DNA of 34,962 bases from Gammaproteobacteria bacterium (GTDB taxonomy: Bacteria; Pseudomonadota; Gammaproteobacteria; Eutrophobiales; Eutrophobiaceae), in the NCBI GenBank assembly GCA_030829955.1, contig JAURNY010000023.1:1-34962 (forward strand), read 5' to 3'. Shown piece by piece: positions 28,973 to 34,962 of the stretch (position 1 is the first letter of the stretch; every line of letters begins with the position of its first letter). Made by a program: the position numbers and the translations under genes. Under the pieces are notes generated by a model. It was not told where the DNA came from and did not search any database. It worked only from the letters and a program-made list of their open reading frames with translations.

Positions 28973-30715
28973 ATGAAATTACTTTCGTACAGTCGTGATG
29001 CTGCTGTGATTGCATTAGCTGCATCACTAACAGCTCTGCCAGCTACTTCGGCATTTGCTGTTTCTGACAGTGACATTTTAAATGATGCTGAAACTACTAA
29101 TGATGTTGTTAGTTATGGTATGGGTCCACAAGGTCAGCGTTACAGCACCTTGACTCAAATCAATGACAAAAACGTTAACAAATTAGTCCCTGCTTGGACT
29201 TACTCTTTTGGCGGTGAAAAACAACGTGGTCAGGAATCTCAACCACTAGTTTCTAATGGCAAGATTTTTGTAACGGGTTCTTACTCTCGTGCATTCGCAT
29301 TGAATTCACAAACCGGTGAAGAAATCTGGCAATATGACCACCGTTTACCAGAAGGTATTTTGCCTTGCTGTGACGTAATCAACCGTGGTGGTGCACTATA
29401 TGACAACCTGTTCATCTTCGGTACCCTTGATGCGCAAATCGTTGCATTAGATCAAGAAACTGGAGATGTTGTCTGGAAAGAAAAGATCGATGAATTTAAA
29501 GATGGCTATTCTAACTCTGCTGCTCCACTTATCGTGAAAGGTAAAGTGATTACCGGCGTATCAGGTGGTGAGTTCGGTATTATTGGTCGTCTAGAAGCTC
29601 GTGATGCTAAAACCGGTAAAATGGTTTGGGTTCGTCCTACTGTTGAAGGTCACATGGGTACCTTAAATGGTAAAGATAACGGCATTTCTGGTAAAACCAA
29701 TGCATCTTGGCCTGGCGACCTTTGGAAAACCGGCGGCGCTGCTACTTGGAATGGCGCTACTTATGATCCTGAAGTTGACCTGATATTTGTTGGTACAGGT
29801 AACCCTGCTCCTTGGAACGCGCACATGCGCCCAGGTGATAACTTATATTCAACTTCTACCGTTGCTATCGATCCTGATACCGGCAAAATTGCGTGGCACT
29901 ATCAATTTACGCCAAATGATGGTTGGGATTATGATGGTGTTAACGAAACTGTATCTTTCAACAATGGCGGCAAAAAACTTGCTGGTCATGCTGACCGTAA
30001 TGGTTTCTTCTACGTCCTTGATCGTACCAATGGTAAATTGGTTAACGCTTTTCCTTTCGTAAACCAAATTGACTGGGCGAAAGGCGTTGATTTGAAAACT
30101 GGCCGTCCTATCGAAACAGGTGTTCGTCCTGGCGATCCATCTGCATCAACCGATGGTAAAAAAGGTAAACAAATCTTTGTTGCGCCTTCATTCCTTGGTG
30201 GTAAAAACTGGATGCCTATGGCATATAGCCAAGCTACCGGCCTGTTCTATGTTCCTTCAAACGAATGGGGTATGGATCTTTGGAATGAGCCAGTTACCTA
30301 CAAAAAAGGTGCGGCTTACTTAGGTGCTGGTTTTACCATTAAGCCTTTGAATGATGATTACATCGGTGCCCTACGCGCATATGATCCAATTACTGGTAAA
30401 CGAGTCTGGGAAGTTAAAAACAAAGCTCCTCTTTGGGGTGGTGTTTTAGCAACCGCGGGTAATGTCGTATTTACCGGTACTCCTGAAGGCTTTTTAAAAG
30501 CTTTCAATGCTAAAACTGGTGAAGAACTTTGGAAGTTCCAAACCGGTTCTGGCGTTGTTGGTAGCCCAATTACCTGGACTGAAGGTGGCGAACAATATAT
30601 CGCTGTCCCATCAGGTTGGGGTGGTGCTGTTCCACTGTGGGGTGGTGATGTTGCGAAAGCAGTTAAATCACTCAATCAGGGTGGCAGCCTTTGGGCATTC
30701 AAACTCTCTAAATAA
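28973..30715 (+). CDS. Lanthanide-type PQQ-dependent alcohol dehydrogenase (methanol/ethanol family)
   Basis: Periplasmic quinoprotein that oxidises alcohols and passes electrons to a cytochrome c. The 580-residue precursor has a Sec signal ending at AFA (29). It is an eight-bladed propeller with repeated W-motifs such as [16 protein letters not shown] and KIAWHYQF. Active-site residues: the vicinal disulfide C132-C133, metal ligands E200 (SGGEFG) and N277 (GTGNPAPWN), and catalytic D319 in WDYDGVN. The second Asp, D321, is the extra ligand that marks lanthanide enzymes; calcium-type MxaF has Ala and calcium-type ethanol enzymes have Ser there. Overall motifs ([25 protein letters not shown]) resemble the ExaF/PedH ethanol-type branch more than XoxF, so short-chain alcohols or aldehydes are the likely substrates. 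No PQQ synthesis genes are in the window. Confidence 0.9.
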
Positions 30716-30738: not shown

Positions 30739-30772
30739 AAGGCCGGAAGAAACTTTCCGGCCTTCTTTTTTT
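30739..30772 (+). terminator. Strong terminator after the PQQ dehydrogenase
   Basis: AAGGCCGGAA (30739-30748) pairs with TTCCGGCCTT (30755-30764) around a 6-base loop and is followed by TCT and a run of seven T residues. It separates the dehydrogenase from the downstream accessory genes, which therefore get less transcript or have a promoter of their own. Confidence 0.92.
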
Positions 30773-30862: not shown

Positions 30863-31321
30863 ATGTTTAAGTTTAGGAATTTTATAATGAATAATTTTGT
30901 TAAATATTTTTTTGCATCATTGTTAATTAATTTATTTTCATCTTTGGCTGTTGCTCATGGTGATGTTCAACCACAGCCAGTTGATACTACTGGTTTGGAA
31001 GATTTGGGTGATGATTGGCTAGCACGTAACCCATACAGCGGAAATGAAACTGCAATAAAAATAGGTTCCTCTGCGTATAATCAAAATTGTGCACGTTGTC
31101 ATGGTCTGGGTGGTATTTCAGGTGGTATTGCACCTGACTTGAGATATCTTGAACATACTGCTGATGGTGACGAATGGTATGTATATCGTGTTAGAAATGG
31201 TGCGGTTAGGAATGGCGTGACCTACATGCCTCATTTTGCAGAATCTGATGGCGGTCCGCTTAGTCAGGAAGCTTTGTGGGCAATTCGCGCATGGTTAGAA
31301 ACGGTAGATACAGAGGAATAA
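30863..31321 (+). CDS. Cytochrome c-550, PedF type
   Basis: Periplasmic single-haem cytochrome, the likely electron acceptor of the adjacent quinoprotein. The 152-residue precursor has a signal sequence ending near residue 31 (SLAVA), so the mature protein begins HGDVQPQPVDTTGLE, a stretch typical of PedF. The haem site is CARCH at 76-80 and the probable axial methionine is M122 in TYMPHF. The C-terminal helix LSQEALWAIRAWLE is as in the family. ATG 30863 is supported by a TAAGAGG ribosome site; ATG 30887 is an alternative. Confidence 0.9.
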   Translation: MFKFRNFIMNNFVKYFFASLLINLFSSLAVAHGDVQPQPVDTTGLEDLGDDWLARNPYSGNETAIKIGSSAYNQNCARCHGLGGISGGIAPDLRYLEHTADGDEWYVYRVRNGAVRNGVTYMPHFAESDGGPLSQEALWAIRAWLETVDTEE

Positions 31322-31340
31322 TTAATAAAGGAGTTTATCT

Positions 31341-32222
31341 GTGATTAGTTTGCGCTATGTAATGTTAGTTATTTTAATTTTTGTTAATACATTAGTTAAT
31401 GCTTCAACTTTAGAAGAGGTACTTGAAAAAAAATACATACAGTTTGCATTTTATGAAAATTTTCCGCCATTCTCTTATGAAGATGAATCAGGAAAAATAG
31501 TAGGTATTGATGTTGATATAGCTCAACTTGTCGCAGACAAATTAGAAGTTAAATTAGGTAAGCGATTACTTGCCGCAGATGAATCAGTCGATGATGATTT
31601 AAGAAATGGTGTCTGGAAAGGCCACTTTACTGCTGGTGGTCCTTCAGACGTTATGATGCATATTCCATATGATCCAGCTTTTGCCAGAGCCAATGATAAG
31701 GTTGCATTTTTACAGCCTTATTTCAAAGAGTTAATTGCGTTCGCTGTAAATACATATAGGATAAAAAACTCGTCCTCATTAGAAGCATTTTTTAATGATC
31801 CTATAGGTGTCGAAACAGCAACGCTTGCCGATGCCTATTTACTTGGAGCACATGGTGGCAAACTTAGAGATAACGTAAAACATTATGTAAACATCGCTGA
31901 AGCTGTAAAAGCGATGGTTGATAATGAAGTTTATGCAGTAATGGCAACCAGAAGTGAAATAGAATTTAATCTTAAAAAATACGATCAGGATTTTTTGGTT
32001 ACCAAGTTACCTACACCGGGATTAACACTTGACGGATGGACATTATGCGCTGCAGTTAAAGCTGATAATGTTAAGTTGGCGAAACGTTTAAATGAAATAT
32101 TTAGTGAATTAAAAGCATCTGGTGATATTGAACGTGTTTTTAAATCATATGGTTTGAATTTTAAAGAAGCATCAGAAAAAGAAATTATCACTCCATATAA
32201 TGCTCAATATGCTATTGAATGA
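31341..32222 (+). CDS. Quinoprotein dehydrogenase-associated solute-binding protein (MoxJ/XoxJ-like)
   Basis: A 293-residue exported protein with the fold of family-3 ABC solute-binding proteins. It has a signal peptide (MLVILIFVNTLVNA, cleavage near 22) and begins with IQFAFYENFPPFSYEDESG and GIDVDIAQLVADKL. The segment GGPSDVMMHIPYDPAF is characteristic of the subgroup found beside PQQ dehydrogenases. No permease or ATPase gene is nearby, so import is unlikely. XoxJ and MxaJ are thought to act on dehydrogenase maturation or activation, and a similar role is inferred. The GTG start has an AAGGAG ribosome site and lies 19 bases after the cytochrome gene. Confidence 0.88.
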   Translation: MISLRYVMLVILIFVNTLVNASTLEEVLEKKYIQFAFYENFPPFSYEDESGKIVGIDVDIAQLVADKLEVKLGKRLLAADESVDDDLRNGVWKGHFTAGGPSDVMMHIPYDPAFARANDKVAFLQPYFKELIAFAVNTYRIKNSSSLEAFFNDPIGVETATLADAYLLGAHGGKLRDNVKHYVNIAEAVKAMVDNEVYAVMATRSEIEFNLKKYDQDFLVTKLPTPGLTLDGWTLCAAVKADNVKLAKRLNEIFSELKASGDIERVFKSYGLNFKEASEKEIITPYNAQYAIE

Positions 32223-32308
32223 ATTCATTATAATTTTTATTAGAATTTTTATTCTTGTTTAATGATTTTGTTATTGCGGCAGAACCTATGAATAATTTGT
32301 TTCCATAA

Positions 32309-33088
32309 TTGATTATTAAAATAATTATGTACTTTAATACTTTTTTTCTTTTTCTATTAGTCTCAATATCTTCTGTAACGTTTGCTGTAGATAAGCAAAC
32401 TGATCCACTGGAATCTCCAAGTTGGGATGTTATGCATTCATTAATTCTTAACGAGGAAGCTTATTTATTTGATAACAGAGTTATAGTCACTGTTCCGGCA
32501 TTTGCAGAAGATGCCTTAAATGTACCTATTTCTGTAAACGTAAAAGATATTAAAGATATAGAAAACATGGTTGTTTTTGCAGATTTAAACCCTATTCAAC
32601 AAGTGCTTAACTATGAGCCTGTCAATGCACAACCAGTGATATCGTTTCGTTTAAAGGTAGAACAATCCACACCAGTGAGAGCAGCAGTAAAAACCAAAGA
32701 TGGTATATGGCATGTTGGCGGTGTTTGGTTGGAAGCTGCTGGAGGTGGGTGTACTGTTTCCAGTAATGGCATGGCCTCCGGCACGTGGCCAACAACATTG
32801 ATGAACGTGTCTTCACGAGTATGGTTTAAAGAAAATATTGATCGTTTTCGTTTTCGTGTAATGCATCCAATGGATACTGGTCTAGCTGATGGCGTACCGG
32901 AATTCTATTTGCAAAATATCAATATTACTGATCAAGCTGGCGTGGTAGTAGCAAAAATCAAAACCTATCAGCCATTAAGTGAGAATCCTGTATTTACAAT
33001 AGATGTAAACAAGGAATTAGAATTACCACTTTTTCTACAAGGCGTAGACAATAATGGTAATCGACTCAAAGCAGAGCTGAAACCTTGA
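32309..33088 (+). CDS. Quinoprotein dehydrogenase-associated SoxYZ-like carrier protein
   Basis: An exported fusion of a SoxY-like and a SoxZ-like domain. The N-terminal signal ends near SSVTFA. The SoxY-like part carries the conserved cysteine in EAAGGGCTVSS (Cys148 counted from TTG 32309), equivalent to the SoxY swinging-arm cysteine. The SoxZ-like half follows, with RFRFRVMHPMDTGLADGVPE and FYLQNINI. In sulfur oxidation SoxYZ carries substrates as thioadducts; here the partner would be the quinoprotein system, and the cargo is not known. TTG 32309 gives a signal with a lysine; ATG 32327 is an alternative start giving 253 residues. Neither has a good ribosome site. It overlaps the next gene by four bases. 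Confidence 0.85.
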   Translation: MIIKIIMYFNTFFLFLLVSISSVTFAVDKQTDPLESPSWDVMHSLILNEEAYLFDNRVIVTVPAFAEDALNVPISVNVKDIKDIENMVVFADLNPIQQVLNYEPVNAQPVISFRLKVEQSTPVRAAVKTKDGIWHVGGVWLEAAGGGCTVSSNGMASGTWPTTLMNVSSRVWFKENIDRFRFRVMHPMDTGLADGVPEFYLQNINITDQAGVVVAKIKTYQPLSENPVFTIDVNKELELPLFLQGVDNNGNRLKAELKP

Positions 33089-34020
33089 TAAAAATTTTCA
33101 CGACTATTTTTTTGTTAATAATTGGTTCGACTGGTTTTGCAATAGCAGATACTGACTATCAACTTCATGCAGAATTAATTGCTAAAAACACCTATGTGTT
33201 TATTGGCAAAAAGGAAGATTTTAGTATGGTAAATGGTGGGAATATTCTTAATACTGCATTTATTGTCACTAATGAAGGAGTTGTATTAATTGATAGCGGG
33301 CCTTCTTATCAATATGCATTACAAGCAAAAGCAGCTATCAATGAAATAACCGATAAACCTGTTATTAAAATATTTATAACGCATTCTCATCCTGATCATT
33401 TTCTAGGTAATCAGGTTTTTCCTGATGCCAGCATTTATGCTCTACCAACAACGATTAGAGAATTAAAAACAAATGCAGAAAGTTTTCTCGATAATGTTTA
33501 TCGTTTAGCTGATTACTGGATGGCTGGTACTGAAGTTAGTATCAATTCAATACTACCATTAAATAGTACGTCAGAATTAATTGGTGAACATTCCTTACGT
33601 TATCTATTTTTGAAAGGGCATACTGCTGCAGATTTGGCCATTCTCGATGAAACAACAGGGGTGCTGTTTACAGGTGATCTTGTATTTCATAACCGAGCAG
33701 CAACAACGCCTCATGCAAATATAGAAGCATGGCTTCTCTCTCTTGATAAATTGGAACAGATTCGATTCAACTTATTAGTACCTGGACATGGCGAAGTTAC
33801 CGGTAATATATCGCCGATTAAACAAACCAGAGAATATTTAACCTGGTTAGATGTAACAATAAAGAGGTCAGTTATGGATGGATTATCCATGAATGAGGTA
33901 ATCAATTTACCAGTTCCTGAACAGTTTCAAAATCTTGCAGTACTAAAATCTGAATTTATGCGTTCAGTAATCCATCGTTATCCCATCTACGAAAAAACAT
34001 TATTTGAACAAATAGAATAG
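33085..34020 (+). CDS. Quinoprotein relay system zinc metallohydrolase (metallo-beta-lactamase fold)
   Basis: A 311-residue exported hydrolase with a signal peptide (IFLLIIGSTGFAIA, cleavage near 21). The zinc motif THSHPDHFLGN supplies H100, H102, D104 and H105. H179 (KGHTAADL), D198 (FTGDLVF) and H235 (PGHGEV) complete a two-zinc site. It belongs to the SoxH-like metallohydrolases that co-occur with SoxYZ-like carriers and PQQ dehydrogenases; the reaction is unproven, perhaps release of a thioester-bound intermediate. TTG 33085 overlaps the preceding TGA as TTGA, so the two are translationally coupled. No terminator is obvious after it. Confidence 0.88.
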   Translation: MIKIFTTIFLLIIGSTGFAIADTDYQLHAELIAKNTYVFIGKKEDFSMVNGGNILNTAFIVTNEGVVLIDSGPSYQYALQAKAAINEITDKPVIKIFITHSHPDHFLGNQVFPDASIYALPTTIRELKTNAESFLDNVYRLADYWMAGTEVSINSILPLNSTSELIGEHSLRYLFLKGHTAADLAILDETTGVLFTGDLVFHNRAATTPHANIEAWLLSLDKLEQIRFNLLVPGHGEVTGNISPIKQTREYLTWLDVTIKRSVMDGLSMNEVINLPVPEQFQNLAVLKSEFMRSVIHRYPIYEKTLFEQIE

Positions 34021-34650: not shown

Positions 34651-34962
34651 AAACTGAAGAGTTTGATCCTGGCTCAGATTGAACGCTGGCGGCATGCCTA
34701 ACACATGCAAGTCGAACGGTAACGAAAGAGAGCTTGCTCTCTTGGCGACGAGTGGCGGACGGGTGAGTAATGCTTAGGAATCTGCCCAGTAGCGGGGGAT
34801 AGCTCGGGGAAACTCGAATTAATACCGCATAAGCCCTAAGGGGGAAAGCAGGGGATCTTCGGACCTTGCGCTATTGGATGAGCCCAAGTCAGATTAGCTA
34901 GTTGGTGAGGTAATGGCTCACCAAGGCGACGATCTGTAGCTGGTCTGAGAGGATGATCAGCC
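34651..34962 (+). rRNA. rrs: 16S ribosomal RNA, 5' part (runs off the window)
   Basis: The mature 5' end aligns with E. coli AAATTGAAGAGTTTGATC at 34651. The universal primer-site sequence AGAGTTTGATCCTGGCTCAG at about 34658 and GAACGCTGGCGGC follow directly. About 312 bases are present, up to GAGAGGATGATCAGCC at the window end. Helices typical of Gammaproteobacteria (GGGGGAAAGCAGGGGATCTTCGGACC in two parts) are visible. The genus cannot be fixed from this part without a database. Confidence 0.98.

Follow-up and report, generated by a model that had tools for sequence, protein, structure and literature searches.

In Pseudomonas putida KT2440, the core of the ped locus (PP_2675-PP_2678) contains, in this order, the genes of a cytochrome (pedF), a solute-binding protein (pedG), a SoxYZ-like carrier (PP_2677) and a hydrolase (PP_2678), and the set lies beside pedE/pedH (PMC12997753). 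A 2026 review describes the ped accessory genes as poorly characterised, whose possible roles are maturation, or the protection of pyrroloquinoline quinone (PQQ) (PMC12997753). In a 2024 study of lucinid symbionts, the same fusion of SoxY and SoxZ was named SoxYZ-S2 and found with soxH and the gene of a PQQ alcohol dehydrogenase as neighbours, and another fusion, SoxYZ-S4, was found beside xoxF (PMC11237559). Many bacteria from the environment and from industry have such genes in their alcohol-oxidation loci, where the annotation speaks of a "relay" but gives no mechanism. We analysed them in a stretch of 34,962 nucleotides (the window), which is contig JAURNY010000023.1 of the gammaproteobacterial assembly GCA_030829955.1, positions 1-34,962, forward strand. 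The gene set of the window is already known as the core of the ped locus and as the SoxYZ-S2/soxH locus of lucinid symbionts; the observation is sound, not new, and the literature holds no established mechanism. We favour, tentatively, the reading that this set assists a soluble PQQ alcohol dehydrogenase as an accessory module for protection or repair, in which the carrier adduct would most likely be a sulfur species and the hydrolase its remover. The genes and the terminator of the locus are as follows, with hydrolases of the metallo-beta-lactamase (MBL) fold numbered by type.

28973..30715, + strand: PQQ-dependent alcohol dehydrogenase (quinoprotein), methanol/ethanol family, PedH/ExaF-like (TIGR03075, 778 bits; vicinal cysteine (CC) pair and WDYDG)
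30739..30764, + strand: intrinsic terminator between quinoprotein and cytochrome genes (stem of 11 bp with a T run; has the features of a terminator on both strands)
30863..31321, + strand: cytochrome c550 PedF (TIGR04494, 195 bits against a cut-off of 122; one CARCH haem site)
31341..32222, + strand: orphan family-3 solute-binding protein in the PedG position (PF00497; GTG start, AAAGGAG upstream)
32309..33088, + strand: fused SoxY-SoxZ-like carrier, S2 clade (TIGR04557, 190.5 bits against a cut-off of 140; Cys148 in AAGGGCT at the SoxY/SoxZ junction)
33085..34020, + strand: MBL-fold hydrolase, type 1 (TIGR04558 SoxH_rel_PQQ_1, 381 bits against a cut-off of 300; TTG start)

An earlier note on this DNA, made from the sequence alone, had described four exported proteins that follow the quinoprotein in tight order. 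The coordinates of the four genes and the gaps of 19, 86 and -4 bases between them were borne out, and all four products have a hydrophobic, signal-peptide-like N-terminus. The order is tight within the four genes, but the quinoprotein gene is split off by 147 bp containing a strong intrinsic terminator. Because of this gap and terminator, the four genes are probably a transcription unit of their own.

The gene order is the same as in KT2440. Differing from KT2440, the window has only one quinoprotein, of the lanthanide type, and no counterpart of the rhodanese gene (PP_2666). With the Candidatus Thiodiazotropha locus the window shares an MBL type 1 hydrolase and a PQQ dehydrogenase, and its carrier lies within the clade of the S2 proteins of that organism (support 100/99; PMC11237559). 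Unlike that locus, the window contains no soxAXB gene; elsewhere in the genome, where soxAXB was not searched for, only soxY and soxZ were seen. The earlier statement that no other sox gene is present is therefore correct for the window and incorrect for the genome. Separate soxY and soxZ genes lie on contig C7 (L069:5207-5973; TIGR04488 126.5 bits, TIGR04490 113 bits), with a soxY product that ends in AGGCG. A second SoxH-like hydrolase, of type 2, lies on contig C23 (L093:5305-6246; TIGR04559 351 bits) with no carrier adjacent; by eye, it is surrounded by TSUP-, CysB- and CysH-like open reading frames (ORFs). The S4 fusion and MBL type 2 hydrolase beside XoxF are a parallel carrier-hydrolase pair next to a PQQ dehydrogenase, but both proteins belong to clades separate from those of the window, and the S4 motif is GGCSAP.

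Carrier and hydrolase as matched partners

We surveyed 274 genomes of the same class, in which a carrier was counted if it exceeded the cut-off and its reading frame was open. For a second sample, named genomes were scanned with the hydrolase as a seed, which gave 80 loci; these were ordered by how similar they are to the window protein, and Pseudomonas and Rhodocyclales are strongly represented among them. The "carrier" of one genome (G117) does not enter the co-occurrence figures, since this fused protein clusters with the true soxYZ of its genome (GGCGG). All 80 named loci turned out to have a carrier beside the hydrolase, which was found by profile in 74 of them and by tblastn in the other 6. 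Nine surveyed genomes contain TIGR04558 over the cut-off, and the carrier is adjacent in 9/9; chance is not the cause, with a Fisher p of about 1e-9 for co-occurrence at the genome level. Carrier and hydrolase are on the same strand in 83/83 pairs, with a gap of at most 60 bp in 79/83. Pairing follows the clades without exception: the partner is MBL type 1 for every S2 carrier (83 pairs) and type 2 for every S4 carrier (12 pairs). The two proteins are specific, paralogue-matched partners, and the view of the four genes as one set stands.

A PQQ_CXXCW/rhodanese-like gene is present in 22/80 loci, and also in annotated alphaproteobacterial plasmid loci. On the conjugative plasmid pBSY17_2 of Sphingobium sp. 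RAC03 (L196), the genes of a rhodanese, a carrier and a type-1 hydrolase lie beside a Tn3 transposase. There is no dehydrogenase gene within 7 kb, and the three genes may be mobilised together.

The window carrier is over the TIGR04557 cut-off, adjoins a PQQ dehydrogenase gene and has both domains in one chain, with profile matches to SoxY at residues 37-145 and to SoxZ at 165-256. Its predicted model has two beta-sandwich domains (mean predicted local distance difference test score, pLDDT, 93), and in a fold search SoxY structures were clear matches (Z about 11). Foldseek matches to antibodies were set aside as a common beta-sandwich resemblance. The carrier shares the SoxY and SoxZ folds and the GG-C carrier cysteine with the canonical thiosulfate carrier SoxYZ. 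However, it is one fused chain with an internal cysteine (GGGCTV), whereas the canonical cysteine is on a free C-terminal GGCGG arm, and it scores 51 bits as a canonical SoxY against a cut-off of 125. Model confidence dips to a pLDDT of about 80 in the blocks 141-160, as would be expected if Cys148 sat in a mobile loop where the two domains meet. The earlier note had made its proposal depend on a conserved carrier cysteine, and Cys148 is indeed invariant (46/46 in one alignment, 65/65 in a larger one), as are Gly146, Pro187 and Asp247 across the 65 carriers. S2 carriers form a single clade (100/99), within which the window carrier clusters with those of its genus and family.

The window hydrolase, which had been taken for a zinc enzyme, has by its sequence the complete di-metal ligand set: H100, H102, D104, H105, H179, D198 and H235. 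These seven residues are invariant in 51 aligned hydrolases, and also in the 44 non-variant rows of a second alignment. Its predicted model (pLDDT 96) is closest to 8d2z, an uncharacterised MBL protein from Burkholderia (Z 32), followed by 6uxu, chlorothalonil dehalogenase (Z 29). It has the fold of subclass B1 metallo-beta-lactamases (Z about 27), but differs from them by Asp198 in place of the Cys221 ligand and scores 57.9 bits against their cut-off of 200.

In six genera of one bacterial family, H100N, H105Y and D198G occur together in the hydrolase, which means the loss of 3/7 zinc ligands (motifs NxHxDY ... GGLVF ... PSHG; loci L053 and L245-L249 in genomes G107, G287, G301, G296, G294 and G291). 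The six variant proteins form one clade (100/99) and are 47-67% identical to each other. Since the same three substitutions are held across this divergence, the sequences point to a working protein and not to decay. Carriers beside five of the six variants retain GGGC, and the sixth carrier is cut by the contig end. The variant genomes contain no other type-1 hydrolase and no type-2 hydrolase over the cut-off; no zinc-site variant on a plasmid was among the 15 matches listed. Given the loss of three ligands next to carriers that keep the cysteine, di-zinc hydrolysis cannot be universal. This lineage either can do without hydrolysis or uses a changed chemistry. Two further candidates were rejected: an apparent motif loss in L145, where all ligands and the cysteine are present, and a 1974-aa hydrolase fusion in G362, an artefact that consists of a run of N.

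The dehydrogenase accompanied by the module

The window quinoprotein has the CC pair and the motif PNDGWDYDG, with an extra Asp two residues past the catalytic Asp. Judging by these residues, it is a lanthanide-type PQQ alcohol dehydrogenase. The other three matches to the TIGR03075 family in the genome (>380 bits) also carry the lanthanide-type Asp. Among the surveyed genomes, 31 have the fused carrier, 48 have a PQQ alcohol dehydrogenase and 30 have both (p about 2e-26); the sole carrier genome without the dehydrogenase, G200, is 64% complete. Thus, the co-occurrence of these families with quinoproteins was confirmed, while a strict co-occurrence with lanthanide-type enzymes was not. The 80 loci divide into 37 with only lanthanide-type enzymes, 27 with both types, 6 with only the calcium type and 10 with none classified. 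In five named genomes, those of the calcium-only loci L121, L143, L145, L152 and L153, the carrier-hydrolase pair is present with a calcium-type enzyme as the sole soluble one, and other family members, if any, are heme-fused. Eighteen of the surveyed genomes have the dehydrogenase but lack the carrier. Only heme-fused enzymes are present in 11 of them and soluble lanthanide-type ones in 6; G262 has the heme-fused kind and an atypical soluble one. Since both calcium-only carrier loci and carrier-less lanthanide-type genomes exist, the lanthanide linkage is strong but not obligatory. The module accompanies soluble PQQ alcohol dehydrogenases, mostly of the lanthanide type, and is neither needed by nor exclusive to that type. 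It is accessory and not essential: related enzymes work without it.

The proposed carrier adduct and its removal

In the mechanism that we favour, PedF would accept electrons from the quinoprotein, as published for Pseudomonas and assigned here by family, and the solute-binding protein would be a PedG/XoxJ-like helper. By homology with SoxYZ, the single-chain carrier would form a covalent adduct at the invariant Cys148. The MBL protein, as its dedicated partner, would normally hydrolyse the adduct off the thiol with its di-zinc site. The adduct would be sulfane- or sulfonate-level sulfur cleared from the periplasm around the quinoprotein, which would protect or repair PQQ or the vicinal cysteine pair. 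Proposals in the literature include a shield against sulfur species for PQQ or methanol dehydrogenase, and also enzyme maturation (PMC12997753, PMC11237559). As cited in PMC11237559, SoxH can free sulfate from SoxY in Sulfurimonas without soxB, and in Hyphomicrobium thiosulfate inhibits the use of methanol and not of formate. We consider a sulfur adduct, with a role in protection or repair, somewhat likelier than an aldehyde because both proteins come from sulfur-handling families, some loci include a rhodanese-like gene and SoxH has published activity on SoxY; a further reason is that the type-2 hydrolase of this genome sits among sulfur-gene-like ORFs. Several points weigh against the sulfur adduct. 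The linkage to the dehydrogenase favours a carbon adduct, as do the hosts, since many of those of the S2 clade (Pseudomonas) are not, to our knowledge, thiosulfate oxidisers. This genome has no rhodanese partner over the cut-off, and the literature that we found contains no report of an observed carrier adduct. The fusions have been argued to serve carbon metabolism or protection (PMC11237559), and transposon mutants of P. putida had minimal phenotypes on alcohols without rare earths (PMC12997753). Finally, hydrolysis cannot be general, judging by the clade that lacks three zinc ligands.

The earlier note had proposed that the carrier captures a reactive product, such as an aldehyde, which the hydrolase releases. 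In such a relay, Cys148 would trap the aldehyde as a hemithioacetal, which the quinoprotein would oxidise to a thioester; hydrolysis of the thioester to the acid by the MBL protein would then keep free aldehyde from leaking. Lanthanide-type enzymes oxidise aldehydes besides alcohols, and the carrier, with its invariant cysteine, is tied strictly to PQQ dehydrogenases and not to sox genes. The ligand set of the hydrolase is also glyoxalase-II-like, with Asp where the B1 enzymes have Cys. However, soluble quinoproteins occur without the carrier in G162, G145, G190, G028, G174 and G241, and in P. aeruginosa (PMC12997753). Pseudomonas loci often include, in the pedI position, an ORF of about 506 aa that resembles aldehyde dehydrogenases; this implies that free aldehyde reaches the cytoplasm. 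Release of the adduct by the hydrolase also fails as a general rule in the six genera with the variant zinc site, and we consider the aldehyde relay unlikely. According to another proposal (PMC12997753), carrier, hydrolase and rhodanese aid the formation of the vicinal disulfide, or the insertion or stabilisation of PQQ or lanthanide in the dehydrogenase. The genes do co-localise with pedF, pedG and pqq genes. Yet the heme-fused quinohaemoproteins of 11/18 carrier-less genomes have the same CC pair, as do the soluble lanthanide-type enzymes of six more. Disulfide formation as such is therefore independent of the carrier, and the heme-fused enzymes led us to set it aside as the sole role; a part in maturation seems rather unlikely.

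The variant hydrolases raise the idea that the MBL protein chiefly docks on or regulates the carrier, with zinc hydrolysis dispensable. It agrees with three substitutions fixed across six genera, with Cys-intact carriers adjoining where readable, and with the lack of a substitute hydrolase in those genomes. The strict conservation of all seven ligands in the remaining proteins speaks against it. Moreover, the residual H102, D104, H179 and H235 may hold one metal, and NxHxD resembles the mono-zinc B2 enzymes. We regard docking or regulation as quite improbable. A wider formulation is doubtful but possible: carrier and MBL protein would handle a thiol adduct as a system of two components, hydrolysis would be inessential, and the conserved function would be docking or an undescribed mono-metal chemistry that serves the PQQ dehydrogenase. 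The natural broken-zinc-site variants are a ready comparison for whether hydrolysis matters. With paralogue-matched partners, an invariant cysteine and a strong but not obligatory lanthanide link, the question is now testable.

Other genes of the locus and the genome

The cytochrome has the characters of PedF c550, with TIGR04494 over the cut-off and a single CxxCH. The solute-binding protein is over no NCBIfam cut-off (best TIGR01096, 64 bits) and has no match to the XoxJ/MoxJ profiles TIGR03871/TIGR03870 at E 0.001, unlike the XoxF-linked protein of the same genome, which scores 257. Among the ORFs neighbouring its gene there is no ATP-binding cassette permease or ATPase. The TTG start of the hydrolase gene overlaps the carrier stop by 4 bases. 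Besides TTG 32309, the carrier has an alternative start at ATG 32327, which may be the true one. The end of the window (34654-34962), which is also the contig end, falls inside the start of a 16S ribosomal RNA gene, recognised by eye.

On contig C7, soxY and soxZ lie between a BepA-type-protease-like ORF and a CPBP-protease-like gene. On contig C21 (L071:2823-14325), two further PQQ dehydrogenases with WDYD flank 2-oxoacid/acetoin-dehydrogenase-like genes, and another MBL protein is encoded downstream. On contig C14 (L070:9530-12984), a XoxF5-like gene is followed by the genes of a pseudoazurin-like cupredoxin and then of a XoxJ-type protein. The cupredoxin (TIGR02375, 82 bits, below the cut-off) occupies the usual place of the xoxG cytochrome, and it is possibly a copper electron acceptor for the lanthanide methanol dehydrogenase.

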